From: a virus
Reading direction: 5' to 3' (one strand)
Virus record (IMG/VR): IMGVR_UViG_3300029319_000531
Coordinates: 1-23,424 of that record
DNA length: 23,424 nucleotides
Part shown: piece after piece, positions 558 to 23,075 of the stretch
Layout: the number at the start of each line of letters is the position of its first letter
Position numbering within the stretch: position 1 is the first letter of the stretch
Program-made: the position numbers and the translations under genes
Notes under the pieces: model-generated
What the model saw: only the letters and a program-made list of their open reading frames with translations
What the model was told of the DNA's origin: nothing
Databases searched by the model: none

Positions 558-1409
558 TTACTGTCCAACTTTCTGAATGTCTTTTGTATATAAAGCGCAA
601 AGAACCATGATGTCATCAAAGGTGGTGGAATGAACGGAGAATCCATTGTTCGACTGTTCTTTGGAAAAATCTTTAGTTTGCTTCTTTATTTCTCTGACAA
701 GTTTGTTGTTTTCCTCTAGTTGTTTTGCCGGGATTCCGTAGTAATAGTGGGCATCTTGCCACTCCTCTAGTGGAAATAGATATTTAACTTCCGCACCTGG
801 GTCAAGAGACGCCACACCAAAAGTTCCAATTCTCGATATATCAGCGGGAACAACCTTGTTGCTCAAAACAGCGTCTGAATTGTTGTAAAAATTTACCATT
901 GCAAAAACGTAGGCAATGAAATTGTTGATGCTTTTTTCATAGTTCTTAATGGATACATCTCCAACCAACTCTTCAATTGTGAGGGCATCTATCAAGAATA
1001 GCCTATCAAATAATCCACTTCGAGCATACTCTTGTAAAATATTAAAAACAATTTTATCATCTCTTTTTTGCTCGCTAGTGCATACTTCTCGGTCTGGCCG
1101 AACATAGGCGACGGTTATGTGAGCATCTTTTATTTGTTCGAGAACGACCAGCGAAATTCCAGTGATTGGTTCTCCGCCGCCAAGTATGAACAGAACTTCA
1201 TCACTTTGCTTTACGCTCCTCAAATAAGCCCCTATCTCATGAGGGTCAGCGGCTTGTTCATATTCCTCTATCGTATTATTTTTTTCTATGCTTAAAGACG
1301 CACGTTCTTTAATATCACTGTTGATTTTGTAGATCCTGTACTCTGGGTAGCTGTGGAATTCTTCTGCGACACCACAACCTCGATCGCCAAGACCAATAAC
1401 CTTAACCAC
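558..1409 (-). CDS. Tubulin/FtsZ-like GTPase homologue, divergent
   Basis: A 283-residue protein. The start MVKVIGLGDRGCGVAEEF matches FtsZ VIGVGGGGxN, followed by YKINSD (FtsZ NTD). Residues 72-86, VLFILGGGEPITGIS, sit where tubulins and FtsZ have the GGGTGTG signature loop; ITVAYVRPD (98-106) matches the strand after it. ADISRIGTFGVASL (189-202) resembles the FtsZ T7 region ADVRTVMSNMG, but the NxDxxD catalytic loop is degenerate: only the last Asp (D190) is kept. It is shorter than FtsZ (about 380) or PhuZ-type tubulins (about 310). GTP binding is plausible, hydrolysis doubtful. Phage tubulins centre or move DNA and capsids; that role here is inference. The start is GTG at 1409, overlapping the polymerase stop by 8 nt, so translation is probably coupled. 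Confidence 0.65.
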   Translation of the reverse strand: MVKVIGLGDRGCGVAEEFHSYPEYRIYKINSDIKERASLSIEKNNTIEEYEQAADPHEIGAYLRSVKQSDEVLFILGGGEPITGISLVVLEQIKDAHITVAYVRPDREVCTSEQKRDDKIVFNILQEYARSGLFDRLFLIDALTIEELVGDVSIKNYEKSINNFIAYVFAMVNFYNNSDAVLSNKVVPADISRIGTFGVASLDPGAEVKYLFPLEEWQDAHYYYGIPAKQLEENNKLVREIKKQTKDFSKEQSNNGFSVHSTTFDDIMVLCALYTKDIQKVGQ

Positions 1410-2616
1410 GATGGATGTCCTTCATCTTGCCTAGATTTTTTCCCTCTGCTACATTTATCCTGAAGGTTCCAAATTTTGTGTTCTGCATAATCTTCTTAAT
1501 CACTGGCAACAGGTGGCGATCTCTCTTGTCCAGATCAATAATAATTGAATCGTGAATAATGGCGCAAATAAAAGACTTTTCAGATCGTTTCTCTAGAAGA
1601 TGATTTATTTTTAACGCTTGTAAGAGAGTAAGCTCCGCTGTCGTTGACTGAACAATGTAATTCAAGGCGTGATGTTGGCTGACATTTTCGATGCGTTTTC
1701 CCAAGGGTGTTACCACAGTTTGACCGTCCCAAAAATCTGTCATTATTTTCTTTTTGTCATAAAACTTCTCAAGGCTTTTAGCGTGCTTCTTTATTTCCGC
1801 AGCCCTGGATCCGTATAGCCAAGCAAAGAAAAACTCTTTTGCCTGTTTTCTGGTGAAGTGGGTTCCAAAAACATTAAGCCGATGAAAGTCATGAACATCA
1901 TCCATTGGCTGCTTTACACCAAGAAGCCCAAGAAGGCAACGAACTTCAGCGCCGTTAAAATCTAGCTCAACAAAGGTGTCATTATTCGGCTTAATCAAAC
2001 CTCTAAAATCTCTGTTAAGAGTTAGGATTGGAAAAGAATTCTTTTTTGTTGATAATCTGCCCGTCTTTGTGCCAAACTGGTCGTAGCGAATATATGGTGA
2101 TGCTGCAAGCAAGCGGTCTTTTTGCCCGTTGGGAACCTTAAGGACTTGCAGAATGCGCTTATCAAGATTCAGCTTTTTAGATGATATGTCATGTAACATT
2201 TTGCACACCTCTAGAAGAAAATCATATCGTTGTGGTCTCTCCACTTTTGTCAGAACATATTCAGTGATCTTGTTCTTAACTTCGCACCACTCTACCAAAA
2301 ATCTTTTCGGGGTCAAATCATAAATGCAATTTTCATTCATATCAACTTTGGCTATCTTAAGAGACCGAACATGAGAATCAAGTTTTCCGGTAGCGTCCTT
2401 CCAGTCATCCATTAAATACTCTGGGACAACCTCTGAAATTTGTTCCCCTTGGAGGTAAAGAGAGGCGTACTCTATGTCTTCTAGGTTTTTTAAGTAGGGA
2501 GCATAGCTCCAAGTTTTTGTTAGATCCGCTGGAAACTCTTCGACGTCAAAGTATAAATTGCCGTTGCGGTAGAAACCTACACACTCGGACTTATCATCCA
2601 TCGTCTGAAACAACAT
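1402..2616 (-). CDS. Family A DNA polymerase, compact, without 3'-5' exonuclease domain
   Basis: A 404-residue polymerase of the Pol I / T7 gp5 type. Visible motifs: TGRLS at 185-189; motif A LDFNGAEVR (218-226) with catalytic D219; motif B RKQAKEFFFAWLYG (256-269) with R256, K260, F264 and Y268; NYIVQSTTAEL (319-329) matching the family's conserved Gln segment; and motif C IHDS (354-357) with D356. Motif C has Ser where most members have Glu. F264 sits where Escherichia coli Pol I has F762. The N-terminal 130 residues are too short for an exonuclease and show no DxE motif, so it probably cannot proofread. The ATG at 2616 follows TTGGAGGCATTTGG. Its last codons overlap the start of the next gene. 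Repair, gap filling or genome replication are all possible. Confidence 0.9.
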   Translation of the reverse strand: MLFQTMDDKSECVGFYRNGNLYFDVEEFPADLTKTWSYAPYLKNLEDIEYASLYLQGEQISEVVPEYLMDDWKDATGKLDSHVRSLKIAKVDMNENCIYDLTPKRFLVEWCEVKNKITEYVLTKVERPQRYDFLLEVCKMLHDISSKKLNLDKRILQVLKVPNGQKDRLLAASPYIRYDQFGTKTGRLSTKKNSFPILTLNRDFRGLIKPNNDTFVELDFNGAEVRCLLGLLGVKQPMDDVHDFHRLNVFGTHFTRKQAKEFFFAWLYGSRAAEIKKHAKSLEKFYDKKKIMTDFWDGQTVVTPLGKRIENVSQHHALNYIVQSTTAELTLLQALKINHLLEKRSEKSFICAIIHDSIIIDLDKRDRHLLPVIKKIMQNTKFGTFRINVAEGKNLGKMKDIHRG

Positions 2617-18935: not shown

Positions 18936-18976
18936 CATACAAAAACAGAAAACCTCGCCACAAGGACGAGGTTCTC
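18936..18976 (-). terminator. Rho-independent terminator after the major capsid gene
   Basis: On the minus strand, 29 nt after the capsid stop codon, a hairpin has the arms AACCTCG and CGAGGTT (18967-18973 and 18951-18957 on the plus strand). Three further pairs follow after one mismatch, with a 9-nt loop, and then TTTTTG. It is placed to end the scaffold-capsid transcript. Confidence 0.75.
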
Positions 18977-19004
18977 TGCGTTGTTATTCAGATTTTTTTA
19001 GCTA

Positions 19005-20777
19005 TTAGCCAATAAGATCCAAGCAAACAACAAGACCGTACATGTCAGGTCGCACCATCTTGTGAGCGTACCGTGTCATGACACCCTTGCGGGGCACAAA
19101 ATCTTCGGTACCAAAGATGGTTGGTGTGACTTGCAGCGGCACGTATGGAGCGTAAACAAATCCGCTCTCAAGGAAGCTGTTTCCTTTACGTCCAACCAAG
19201 ATCACGTTACGAACAAAGTAAGGATCGACATAAATGTCCATCTTACGGCTCAACGAACCAACCTTGGTTGCTCCCCACGAACCACGATCTTCATCAACCA
19301 CGACCGCAGCCTTAAATCCACTGGTGAACTCAAGAATGCTGGCGACCTCTGGCGAGCAAACCAAGAAGTTTGCGCCACCACGGAGGGTCTTGCGGTGAAT
19401 ACGGGCACTGAGGTCGTTAACGGTTTCGAGAAGGGTCTCGTACCACTCGCTCACTGTGCCTGTGAAGTCAGGCGCACCATTCGAAACTGTAATGGTGTTA
19501 CCGTCTTCACGGTTTACGAAGCGTCCGGGGCGGCGAGACCAGAACAATGTTCCACCTGTGGCTGCACCGACAAGGTTCGAAAGAATCTCTTGATCAATCT
19601 CAAGAGCAATTTGCTCAGAAAGAACGCTTGTCAACTCAACTTCGGCGTCAAGGTTGTGGTAAGCATTCAAGTCTTGAGCAAGCTCGGGGCTCCACTTAGC
19701 CTTGAGCTTCTTGGTAACTGCTGTCACGCTGACAGACTGTACTTTAATATCAATTTCTGGGATCTGCGAACTAGCTTCCAGATTCCAGCCTTGATTTCCG
19801 CTGGCACCAGCGATGGCAACAGCAAGAGGATCACCAGCAGCGACAAATTCGTCCTTCACTGGGAAGAACACCGTATGTGTTGCATCCGGAGCGGCTCCAA
19901 GCAATGAATGAGACAACTGCACTGGAGTGCGTCCGCCCAAGCGAGAAACACCGACAATGTACATCACAGTGTCCGAGGTTCCCGAAAGCTGGTTCAAGCG
20001 ACGGGCGTGATAAGCACCTGTCTCAAGTTCGCCAGCACCATCACTACCAGAAGCAACAACAGCCTGCAAATCTTGGGAATTGAAGCCATCGCTCGACGCA
20101 AAAGTCGTGGTAGCAAGGACGACGGTCGAGGTGCCCGAGATTAGATCTGGGTCGCCTCGAAGGATTTCCCAGTACTCTCCACCTCTTTCAAAATCATTGT
20201 GTCCAAAAGTACCAGAAGCTACAATAGCCATGGCTGTGGCGCTAGACTTAGAGCCTGTGGCGCTACTGAATCCGTTGTTGAGACCATAGAATCCGGTCTG
20301 CCCATTAGCATCCGAAAGGTCCACACCACCAGTAATTTGGCGACCAACAATACCAGCACCATAGATCGAGGTATCTGCGACCTCACCAAGACGGACTTCT
20401 TTTCCGTTTCCGTTGGTGCCGCCGCTGTTCATGCCGCTATCTGGACTAAACACAAAGTCCATGAAGAAGATGAGTCCACTTGGGAGGCTCATCGGTTGGA
20501 CCGAAACAAGGTCCTGTGCCAACAATCCACCGAATACACGGCGAACAATTGGGAATGCAACAGAGGCAAAGCCTTCGACATCACCAGCTTGCATGGTTGT
20601 CGATTCTTTCAAAAGCTGTCCAGCCTGGTTCTCAAGGAGACGGGCCATGTTGTTACGTCCAACTTCGTCCAATCCCTCAAGGAGTCCAGTTCTTTCCCAC
20701 TTCTGAAGAAGTGCCTCACCTTCGTGACTAAGCATACGCTGCTTAATCCCTTCAGTAAGAGTGTCTAACATAGACAT
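19005..20777 (-). CDS. gp23: Major capsid protein, T4 gp23-like
   Basis: A 590-residue HK97-fold capsid protein. T4 gp23 landmarks are clear: FPIVRRVFGGLLAQDLVSVQ followed by PMSLPSGLIFFM (residues 75-106), a central region ending in HNLDAEVELTSVL, and the C-terminal FVYAPYVPLQ, VMTRYAHKMV and PDMYGLV. Length is close to T4 gp23 (521) with extra material in the middle. The N-terminal helical part up to residue 58 ends in LLKE, matching the (I/L)xE rule of the T4 prohead protease, so mature protein may begin at Ser59. The ATG at 20777 follows AAGGAGAATC. It shares a unit with the scaffold and ends before a hairpin terminator, as expected for the most abundant late product. Confidence 0.94.
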   Translation of the reverse strand: MSMLDTLTEGIKQRMLSHEGEALLQKWERTGLLEGLDEVGRNNMARLLENQAGQLLKESTTMQAGDVEGFASVAFPIVRRVFGGLLAQDLVSVQPMSLPSGLIFFMDFVFSPDSGMNSGGTNGNGKEVRLGEVADTSIYGAGIVGRQITGGVDLSDANGQTGFYGLNNGFSSATGSKSSATAMAIVASGTFGHNDFERGGEYWEILRGDPDLISGTSTVVLATTTFASSDGFNSQDLQAVVASGSDGAGELETGAYHARRLNQLSGTSDTVMYIVGVSRLGGRTPVQLSHSLLGAAPDATHTVFFPVKDEFVAAGDPLAVAIAGASGNQGWNLEASSQIPEIDIKVQSVSVTAVTKKLKAKWSPELAQDLNAYHNLDAEVELTSVLSEQIALEIDQEILSNLVGAATGGTLFWSRRPGRFVNREDGNTITVSNGAPDFTGTVSEWYETLLETVNDLSARIHRKTLRGGANFLVCSPEVASILEFTSGFKAAVVVDEDRGSWGATKVGSLSRKMDIYVDPYFVRNVILVGRKGNSFLESGFVYAPYVPLQVTPTIFGTEDFVPRKGVMTRYAHKMVRPDMYGLVVCLDLIG

Positions 20778-20801: not shown

Positions 20802-21803
20802 TTAATTTTTTTGACCGATTCCGGCAAGTGTCGCCCATCTGGATTTGACAGGGTCTGCTTTATCGGAATTATCTTGGCGCTGTGCGCCCAATATGACGGA
20901 AGACTTTCTTGATACTGCTTCAGACAATGATTGTGGAGCACTGCTTTTAGGCTGGCTCGCCAGTGTCTTTTGAAGGGTCTCAAAGACCATCTTCGCTTCT
21001 TCAACTGACCGTGAACCGGAGATCATCTCAGCAATTTTATTTTTTTGCTGCTCATTCAGGGAGGAATCGGTTAGTACACGATTAGCATACAACAATCTAG
21101 CGTTTGAAAGGTTAATTTCTTCTAACCTATCTTTTGCTTTTGTCAATACTTCTTTAAGGTTATTATTTTCTTTTTTTAGATTTTCTAATTCTAGCTCAAG
21201 GCGATCTACTGTCCTAGTATGTGCCTCGATATCTTTTTTATCATAGCCATCGTTACGGGAACTCGAAACAGCAACCTCTTGCTCTTCCTCTTCCTTGGCT
21301 TTTTCTGCTATCTCTTCAACTTCCGCAATTTCTTGTTTGTCCATATCGACAACAAGCAACTCCTTAAAGAGATCTAGAAGTTCCCCTTCGTCAAGATCGA
21401 TTTCTTTGTCTTCATCAACCCTGTTTCCGGGCTCAACATCAACAGGTGCGGTCTCTGCCTGGTCAAGAGGAATCCCAACTTCATCTGCGATATCTTCTAC
21501 GTCCAACTCGAAGTCTTCATCTTCTACGCCTTCATCTGCTTCGGCGGCTGCAATGATTTGATCCAAATCTAGAACGACTACTTCGTCGTCCTCCATGTCT
21601 GGGTCGTGAGCAGCAGGGGCGTCATCTACAATTGCCGATAATTCCGGCTCTGCTCCTGGGATTTCGTCTTGTTCAAGAATAGCTGTTACAGCCTCTTTTA
21701 CCTCTGAAGCGTACTTTTCGACGACTGCTGCTTCGGCGTTTTTCAAAGCAGCCTCTCTTAAGTTCGAGGCGTCGATTATTGCTTGTTCAAGCATACTAGG
21801 CAT
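20802..21803 (-). CDS. Prohead core scaffolding protein, T4 gp22-like
   Basis: A 333-residue acidic, highly charged protein placed 24 nt upstream of the major capsid gene, the usual position of the scaffold. Residues 1-45 form an Ala-rich helix (MLEQAIIDASNLREAALKNA region). Residues 50-185 are Asp/Glu-rich, and about residues 200-290 form a strong coiled coil (VDRLELELENLKKENNNL region). The C-terminal part is Ser-rich. Scaffolds of T4-type phages assemble inside the prohead and are cut by the prohead protease. Several LxE-type sites suit that, including LKE in the middle region. The ATG at 21803 follows CGGAGATCAGAT; a second ATG three codons on is less well placed. The call rests on composition, coiled coil and position, since scaffolds diverge too fast for residue-level recognition. 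Confidence 0.75.
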   Translation of the reverse strand: MPSMLEQAIIDASNLREAALKNAEAAVVEKYASEVKEAVTAILEQDEIPGAEPELSAIVDDAPAAHDPDMEDDEVVVLDLDQIIAAAEADEGVEDEDFELDVEDIADEVGIPLDQAETAPVDVEPGNRVDEDKEIDLDEGELLDLFKELLVVDMDKQEIAEVEEIAEKAKEEEEQEVAVSSSRNDGYDKKDIEAHTRTVDRLELELENLKKENNNLKEVLTKAKDRLEEINLSNARLLYANRVLTDSSLNEQQKNKIAEMISGSRSVEEAKMVFETLQKTLASQPKSSAPQSLSEAVSRKSSVILGAQRQDNSDKADPVKSRWATLAGIGQKN

Positions 21804-21882: not shown

Positions 21883-22356
21883 CTACGCTGGGTTTGCACC
21901 GCCGTTGGTTTTCGTTGAAATACCTTCACCTGTCAGTTCAAACATTTCGCCTCGGTCTATCCTTGTTAATTCGGCCAACAATTCATAACACGCTGTACCA
22001 CCAGAAGCGTTCGAAAGATATATTTCTGTACACTTGATGTCAAGGTCAAGCCTCGTTGAGTCGGCAGCATCCGCATTACTACCAGACAAAGTCAAATAGT
22101 GGTGCTCGCTATAGACAGTAGCTGTGTCCTTTGAGATAAAGTGGACCCTGATATCTTTGGGTCCGTGGTTGAAAATTGATATCTTTTTCGACACAAAGGG
22201 GAAAATATGAACATGCTCGGTATTGTTTCCAAGAGCATCAGAACCCGTCATGTAAGGGATGCCAGATACCTGATAGGATCCCACATTGCTAACCCCTGCT
22301 GATCCGGCAGTATAATATTTAGTTTGATCCGGGGAACGTTGATATACGTTAGGCAT
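21883..22356 (-). CDS. Putative small virion protein, perhaps capsid decoration
   Basis: A 157-residue protein with no motif I can name with certainty. The ATG at 22354-22356 is preceded by AGGAGATAGAA, a strong ribosome binding site. The sequence is rich in Gly, Ser, Thr and alternating hydrophobic residues (SKKISIFNHGPKDIRVHFI, YLTLSGSNADAADSTRLDLD, ELLAELTRIDRG), which points to a soluble all-beta fold. It lies two genes upstream of the scaffold and major capsid genes and only 2 nt after bS21. A decoration or head-fibre protein would fit this composition and place. No sequence feature proves it. Confidence 0.4.
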   Translation of the reverse strand: MPNVYQRSPDQTKYYTAGSAGVSNVGSYQVSGIPYMTGSDALGNNTEHVHIFPFVSKKISIFNHGPKDIRVHFISKDTATVYSEHHYLTLSGSNADAADSTRLDLDIKCTEIYLSNASGGTACYELLAELTRIDRGEMFELTGEGISTKTNGGANPA

Positions 22357-22358
22357 TT

Positions 22359-22664
22359 CTATCTCCTATTATTGCGGCGGGGCGATCTCTTCTGCCCTTT
22401 GGCACTATTATTAAATAGTTCTTCTTTTTGTTTATTCTCTTTAACTATTCTTCTTCTTACTTCATTTCTCTTTTCTCGGTCTCGATCTGATTTTTTCTTG
22501 AAGTGTGTTCTTGAGCGAAACTCGTCAACTATTCCCTCTTTTTTTACTTTTTTGATGAATCTTCTCACTAGTGCTTCGGAGTTTCCTTTTGTCTCCTCTA
22601 GTGATACCGAGATAACACCAGATATTTTTCTGCTCTTGTTTTTGTTGAAATTTCTTTTTCTCAT
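22359..22664 (-). CDS. rpsU: Phage-encoded ribosomal protein bS21 homologue
   Basis: A very basic 101-residue protein. Residues 16-77 follow the bS21 pattern: a short beta segment (GVISVSLEE), ALVRRFIKKVKKEGIVDEFR matching the Escherichia coli ALRRF...EKAG...E.RRR core, then HFKKKSDRDREKR matching FYEKPTTERKR, and a long basic helix. Key residues are R34, R35, F36, G44 and E48. It carries about 15 extra basic residues at the N-terminus and a basic tail of about 20 residues, so it is longer than the usual 60-70. Cellular bS21 sits on the 30S platform next to the anti-Shine-Dalgarno end of 16S rRNA and aids initiation. A phage copy could replace or supplement the host protein to favour phage mRNAs; that is inference. 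The AGGAGA that serves the next gene lies in its last codons. Confidence 0.9.
   Translation of the reverse strand: MRKRNFNKNKSRKISGVISVSLEETKGNSEALVRRFIKKVKKEGIVDEFRSRTHFKKKSDRDREKRNEVRRRIVKENKQKEELFNNSAKGQKRSPRRNNRR
22412..22419 (-). promoter_or_regulatory. Candidate late-promoter element ACTATTTA (copy 2)
   Basis: Minus-strand ACTATTTA inside the 3' part of the bS21 gene, 55 nt before the ATG of the next gene at 22356. It overlaps a small inverted repeat (CTATT TAAT AATAG). The bS21 reading frame tolerates it as FNNS codons. Confidence 0.4.
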
Positions 22665-22676
22665 TGTGTTTTCTTT

Positions 22677-23075
22677 CTAATTTAAATTTTTGACCACATT
22701 TCCCCAATTTGACATTCCCGGTATGTTTGATATATCAATACCAGGGTCTCTTGGGTCAACGCCGGCAAGTGCGCCCTTGTTATCATTGCTCGGGATCGGC
22801 TTTGTGCCCTCAAACAATGTCGGATTATTAAACTTTTGCTTTACGTCTTCATAAGCAGATCCGCCGATTGCCGACAAAACCTTGTTTCGAACTTCGGCCC
22901 TGTCGGTCTGCCCTGCCTCTGCTAAAGGTTGTGCAACTACCGGTCTTGTCTTTTGTTGAGTCGGGTGAGTTAGCCCGTTAACAACTTCCGTTATCAACCC
23001 AGACAAAACCCCCTCTTCAAAGATAACCTCTTTGACACATTCTTTGATTATATTTTTGAGTTCCGATTTTTTCAT
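22677..23075 (-). CDS. Hypothetical protein, 132 residues
   Basis: I do not recognise a family. The ATG at 23073-23075 is chosen because AGAAGGGA sits just upstream; a longer in-frame version would run into the preceding gene. The protein opens with a basic, amphipathic helix (MKKSELKNIIKECVKEVI), has a low-complexity Gln/Pro/Ala middle and ends in a Pro/Gly/Asn-rich tail around DPGIDISNIPGMSNW. A short helical start with a flexible tail is common in small prohead-core or internal virion proteins, and the gene lies upstream of the scaffold. That role is only a guess. No membrane segment or signal peptide is seen. Confidence 0.75.
   Translation of the reverse strand: MKKSELKNIIKECVKEVIFEEGVLSGLITEVVNGLTHPTQQKTRPVVAQPLAEAGQTDRAEVRNKVLSAIGGSAYEDVKQKFNNPTLFEGTKPIPSNDNKGALAGVDPRDPGIDISNIPGMSNWGNVVKNLN

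Follow-up and report, generated by a model that had tools for sequence, protein, structure and literature searches.

The window analyzed here, a 23,424-base virus fragment from IMG/VR, encodes a ribosomal protein bS21 that is a fixed part of its phage lineage, with a fixed place and strand in the block of head genes. Its product, likely made late in infection, probably enters the host 30S subunit and keeps or tunes Shine-Dalgarno (SD)-dependent initiation for the SD-bearing virion mRNAs. Among ribosomal proteins, bS21 is the one most often found in phages, and its role in infection is still hypothetical. The window gene is real, well conserved and of the kind described between 2019 and 2022. 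Moreover, capsid-adjacent phage bS21, its late transcription and the idea of a bias toward late mRNAs have already been published (PMC9723584; PMC6375957). The head-operon lineage described below, together with the contrast between bS21 type and SD use, was not found stated in the available text of the accounts compared and is a useful addition to them (PMC6375957; PMC9723584; PMC9976891; PMC9578407; PMC7029224; PMC4360716; PMC7198788; PMC13037479).

Identity of the bS21 gene

The gene is an ATG-started open reading frame of 101 amino acids on the minus strand at 22359-22664. In a Pfam profile search its product matches PF01165 over residues 27-73 with 30.8 bits against a cut-off of 27, and in an NCBIfam profile search it matches TIGR00030 with 35.5 bits against a cut-off of 28.95. 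It also matches PHROG 21469, 'ribosomal protein S21'. With both curated cut-offs passed, the original prediction of a virus-encoded bS21 with an intact core is borne out; placement outside the family had been named as grounds for abandoning it, and the profile searches place the product inside. The PDB sequence matches listed (n = 32) are bS21 chains except for one unrelated designed protein, with a best E of 0.004, and PF01165 is matched by 21/21 aligned relatives. A tblastn search of isolate phages with the window bS21 gave no matches at E 0.01, and the bS21 of Microcystis phage Mel-JY01 was reached via the capsid gene and synteny only.

Core, tails and predicted fold

The core comprises residues 29-73 (22446-22580, minus strand). 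It is preceded by residues 1-28 (22581-22664, minus strand), which comprise a basic N-terminal extension and the lead-in to the core, and followed by residues 74-101 (22362-22445, minus strand), which comprise the end of the last helix and a basic C-terminal tail. Residue 71, an arginine, is the equivalent of Tyr54 in the bS21 of F. johnsoniae. Relative to a gamma-proteobacterial bS21, the window protein has about 17 extra residues N-terminal of the core and 13 extra C-terminal residues. The net charge is about +7 within the first ~14 residues and again about +7 within the last 15, while that of the whole protein is +23 as opposed to +14 in the gamma-proteobacterial reference. This comparison of length and charge confirms the basic extensions that had been proposed for both ends, and the basic N-termini of close relatives back the assigned start. 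Among ten close relatives, mean identity is 31-33% in the tails and 54% in the core, and the tails are basic throughout. They are a trait of the close clade that is conserved in outline only, and any special role for them is putative.

The AlphaFold2 model of the protein (pLDDT 77.8, pTM 0.40) contains helices at residues 29-43, 45-53 and 58-89. The N-terminal tail is predicted to be disordered, with pLDDT below 50 at residues 1-3 and 7-12. Foldseek returned nine matches to the model, all of them mitochondrial ribosome entries and non-significant (best E 0.14). Much longer basic N-terminal extensions are found in two relatives, namely L029 (922-1260), where bS21 has 112 residues and its head is rich in Arg, and L095 (~1488-1841), where bS21 is divergent.

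The head-gene block and its conservation

The window holds a T4-like virion block, all on the minus strand, that encodes a gp23-type capsid protein, neck and sheath proteins and T4-type baseplate proteins. As predicted, bS21 lies inside this cluster, with a scaffold-like gene, gp23, neck and sheath genes downstream on the same strand. Directly downstream is g21883 (21883-22356, minus strand; 157 amino acids), which has syntenic homologs in most relatives. Next comes the prohead scaffold-like gene (20802-21803, minus strand), recognized by its position just before gp23 and its similarity to the genes found there in phages immuto, Mel-JY01 and LR756508, and then the gene for the gp23-type major capsid protein of 590 amino acids (19005-20777, minus strand; PF07068, E 6e-72; phrog_138). 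On the upstream side lies g22677 (22677-23075, minus strand), a small gene that precedes bS21 in nearly all relatives and encodes 132 amino acids from a conserved MKKSELKN start; its longest open reading frame extends to 23159. The N-terminal motif of the product is MKKSELKxxIKECVKEVIFEEGVLSGxISEV. It has no Pfam matches above cut-off and no PHROG matches, and its AlphaFold2 model is of low confidence. The protein is possibly a partner of bS21 or a prohead protein.

A first scan of viral contigs with a bS21 seed pattern yielded 75 relatives. A g22677 homolog lies upstream of bS21 in 75/75 of these loci, usually adjacent to it but with an insert in L068, L074 and L075. A g21883 homolog is next in most of the 75, and the scaffold and capsid genes then follow on the same strand. 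The gene order of the close relative L005 starts with TerL and portal and continues through three smaller genes, protease, a 419-residue gene, g22677, bS21 and g21883 to scaffold and capsid. Proximity of bS21 to head genes is seen for the capsid gene within the window and for TerL, portal and protease in this relative. All of the first 75 relatives share the string FIKKVKKE, which was rejected as a signature because it is an artifact of the search seed; FIKKVKK occurs in 1/33 of the capsid-based sample.

That sample came from a second scan, made with the capsid protein so as not to select for bS21, which gave 80 loci. Of these, 33 contain bS21, and the 31 loci with a g22677 homolog all do so (31/31). 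The loci without bS21 are mostly short or begin near the capsid gene; in L091, however, neither bS21 nor g22677 is present in the 8 kb that precede the capsid gene. Comparison of bS21 among the relatives gives dN/dS values of 0.053 at the median and 0.127 at most, which indicates strong purifying selection and agrees with what has been published for viral ribosomal proteins (PMC6375957).

Two variations in gene order were also observed. In L153 (8573, plus strand), a divergent bS21 no longer follows g22677 but has moved to the position immediately before the scaffold gene. In many relatives, including L009, L010, L014 and L022, several extra kb lie between g21883 and the scaffold gene, which makes this interval of the head block a site of variable cassettes.

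Expression and Shine-Dalgarno use

A GGAG, GAGG or AGGA motif precedes the start codon in 14/19 window genes, where 3.8 would be expected after shuffling. The claim that the genes here carry strong GGAG-type sites thus holds for most window genes but not for bS21 itself, which has none (its upstream sequence is AGAAAGAAAACACA-ATG). In the relatives, a GGAG-type site is present before 20 of 60 bS21 genes, compared with 12.2 expected by shuffling, a signal weaker than that of the other genes. This weak SD suggests either that bS21 is coupled to g22677 or that the protein regulates its own gene. The gap between g22677 and bS21 is 12 bases in the window, and in L005 the start and stop overlap. Because the genes overlap or are closely spaced, translational coupling of bS21 to g22677 is suggested.

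The capsid gene is followed by a strong terminator-like hairpin (18945-18979, minus strand) of 15 pairs, seven of them G-C, with a subsequent T run; this is a consensus match only. The interval from bS21 to the capsid gene showed no terminator-like site on the coding strand. Based on this arrangement, bS21 and the capsid gene are likely co-transcribed. The late production that had been proposed is likewise likely, given the head-block position, the terminator layout and the metatranscriptomes of other bS21 phages (PMC9723584).

Two types of phage bS21

In F. johnsoniae, the residue at position 54 of bS21 stacks against the 16S tail and contributes to the block of the anti-SD (PMC9723584; PMC9976891). 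A scan with a Flavobacteriia-like bS21 provided 80 further viral loci, referred to as type A, which match the kind that Chen et al. reported in 2022 from freshwater Bacteroidetes phages. As in the window lineage, bS21 in the phages of Chen et al. lies near TerL, portal, protease and capsid genes; it is transcribed late with the capsid genes, and its substitution into ribosomes was put forward as a hypothesis (PMC9723584). The Chen-type gene is otherwise distinct: it runs opposite to the head genes, has an aromatic residue at the Tyr54 position and is associated with Bacteroidetes hosts, and in the equivalent set assembled here the phage genes lack SD sites. The window type shares the strand of the head genes, has Arg71 in place of an aromatic residue and is SD-rich, and it has another conserved neighbor and belongs to a separate capsid clade.

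Position 54 is aromatic in 38/38 distinct type A proteins and in 0/97 proteins of the window clade. bS21 and the capsid gene lie on opposite strands in 21/21 type A loci that have a capsid gene, whereas in the window and its relatives the two share a strand. An SD motif precedes 3.1% of 224 type A genes (4.8% after shuffling) but 58-70% of window-type genes (17-20% after shuffling). Since the types form two separate capsid clades, the correlation between bS21 type and SD use has few independent points. Mel-JY01 fits it, being SD-rich and non-aromatic at position 54, while LR756508 is off the pattern, as it lacks the aromatic residue but shows no SD enrichment. The simplest reading of these sequences is that phage bS21 substitutes into the host 30S subunit and would match the translation-start mode of the host.

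The RpsU of Mel-JY01 (PP395634.1, 22183-22410) is annotated as S21 and lies on the same strand between the prohead protease and the scaffold and capsid genes. In contrast to the window, it is without long tails, its small neighbor gene is not detectably homologous, and the capsid proteins are 37% identical. LR756508, from an uncultured 484-kb phage, has bS21 at the syntenic place, while in LR756511 a long distance separates it from the capsid gene. Pelagibacter phage HTVC008M (AGE60443) is a T4-like marine myovirus with a phage bS21, but its bS21 gene, at 91 kb, falls outside the virion block, where the capsid gene is at 74-75 kb, and the capsid belongs to another clade. Two bS21 types with two initiation modes in related lineages offer a natural comparison, which makes it testable whether phage bS21 sets, or merely matches, the mRNA choice of the ribosome. 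Mel-JY01, which is cultured and has a syntenic bS21, is a bench system for this purpose.

Phylogeny and origin of the gene

In the capsid tree, the window clade has support of 99/99, and 16/16 of its rows hold bS21. It groups with RM378, immuto, Mel-JY01 and LR756508 (100/98), apart from near-, cyano- and SAR11-T4 phages; support for this grouping is 85/90 after type A is added, and the long branches make it rough. From this placement, the window phage appears to sit beside the Far-T4 phages. Like the window clade, Far-T4 phages (RM378 and uncultivated clades) have a long capsid protein, and the available main text of the paper describing them is without mention of S21 (PMC4360716). Neither RM378 nor Flavobacterium phage immuto has a PF01165 match. 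In immuto and Mel-JY01, phoH follows the capsid gene; none lies between the capsid and neck genes in the window, which is a fragment. On the simplest reading, bS21 may have been acquired long ago, with later losses.

Phylogeny of the core had been proposed as a way to find the donor lineage. The best bS21 tree keeps the phage proteins together, apart from the sampled Pseudomonadota, Bacteroidota and one chloroplast row, the cellular groups to which the sample was confined. Its support is 23/64 over 47 alignment columns, too few to name a donor. Compared with the cellular bS21 sampled, the identity of the window core does not exceed 43%.

Host signals

Two apparent cellular relatives, from an Acidiferrobacteraceae MAG (L080) and a Flavobacteriaceae MAG (L081), were rejected as phage contigs binned into MAGs; these genomes show a false second bS21 because contigs of the phage clade were binned there. 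The binning is also contradictory, gamma-proteobacterial for L080 and Flavobacteriaceae for L081. The window-type capsid gene was absent from ~400 Bacteroidota genomes searched, and a search of ~400 Pseudomonadota genomes recovered the known L080 contig only. No tRNA genes were found in 76 kb of a 190-kb relative. The equivalent of position 54 is Arg in 22/29 sampled Bacteroidota, so this residue alone is compatible with a Bacteroidota host. The SD-rich genes of the window, however, would speak against an SD-blind (Bacteroidota) host.

Proposed role in infection

In the mechanism proposed here, the phage would make a true bS21, matched to an SD-using host, from its head-gene block late in infection. 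The protein would then join the host 30S subunit beside the 16S 3' tail, either replacing or adding to host bS21, and SD-dependent initiation would be kept or tuned while SD-bearing virion mRNAs dominate. This model is supported by family membership, the fixed head-block place, purifying selection, the SD-rich genes and the non-aromatic position 54. Late timing, ribosome incorporation and any preference for phage mRNA are presumptive, and selective translation of phage mRNA is itself a published hypothesis. A precedent for altered output comes from Francisella, where a bS21 paralog alters the proteome without matching mRNA changes (PMC9578407).

The bS21 of HTVC008M enters E. coli 70S ribosomes, and ribosomes containing the pelagiphage protein retain ~5% activity in vitro (PMC6375957). 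Because incorporation is known from the bS21 of another phage in E. coli, and at this level of activity, inhibition and replenishment are real rivals, although each is rather unlikely. With inhibition, phage bS21 would displace host bS21 and leave ribosomes poor at host mRNAs, so that the benefit is host shut-off and not preference. The reduced synthesis and the low identity of the window core to cellular bS21 agree with this, and the ~5% figure may fit poisoning or host mismatch as well as the main model. However, it comes from a cross-species assay of a tagged protein, and a head-gene position implies expression when the phage's own need for translation peaks. With replenishment, at similarly modest odds, the phage would top up an easily exchanged ribosomal protein for late initiation with zero mRNA selectivity. 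Viruses do tend toward carrying exchangeable ribosomal proteins (PMC6375957), and a bS21 type that matches phage SD use is expected if the host initiation mode is kept, but the clade proteins have extra tails and only a distant similarity to the cellular bS21 sampled.

It is improbable that bS21 has been exapted as a head-associated or packaged internal protein that binds nucleic acid and is possibly injected. The fixed place between protease and scaffold/capsid, the very basic tails and the predicted disorder of the N-terminal tail would suit such a protein, and packaging has also been proposed by others (PMC9723584). Nonetheless, the core is under strong purifying selection and the sampled relatives pass as bS21, which speaks against this reading.

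It is very improbable that a lineage-wide late bS21 replaces an anti-SD-hiding host bS21 and frees the 16S tail, with SD-rich virion mRNAs translated in a non-SD host. The least credible reading, that the non-aromatic phage protein frees the anti-SD in a Bacteroidota host and so creates SD-reading ribosomes for phage mRNAs, draws on the predicted Bacteroidetes/Flavobacteriales hosts of Far-T4 phages (PMC7198788; PMC13037479), the binning of L081, strong SD use beside a bS21 without the aromatic residue and the freed anti-SD of F. johnsoniae ribosomes without bS21 (PMC9976891), but it is opposed by the Flavobacteriia-like bS21 phages, which retain the aromatic residue and are without SD, by the frequency of Arg in Bacteroidota, which need not mean a freed tail, by G+C contents of 42-44% in the window type versus 34% in type A, and by the gamma-proteobacterial binning of L080.

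Other genes of the window

An open reading frame of 283 amino acids at 558-1409 (minus strand), with a KVIGLGDRGCG start and a faint FtsZ/tubulin look, was set aside because searches of Pfam and of PDB sequences gave it no support. The gene at 1402-2616 (minus strand), which lies at the end of the tail genes, encodes a 404-residue protein resembling the C-terminal polymerase part of family A DNA polymerases (PF00476, E 1.4e-14); its matches among isolate phages are weak and are to mycobacteriophage PolI.
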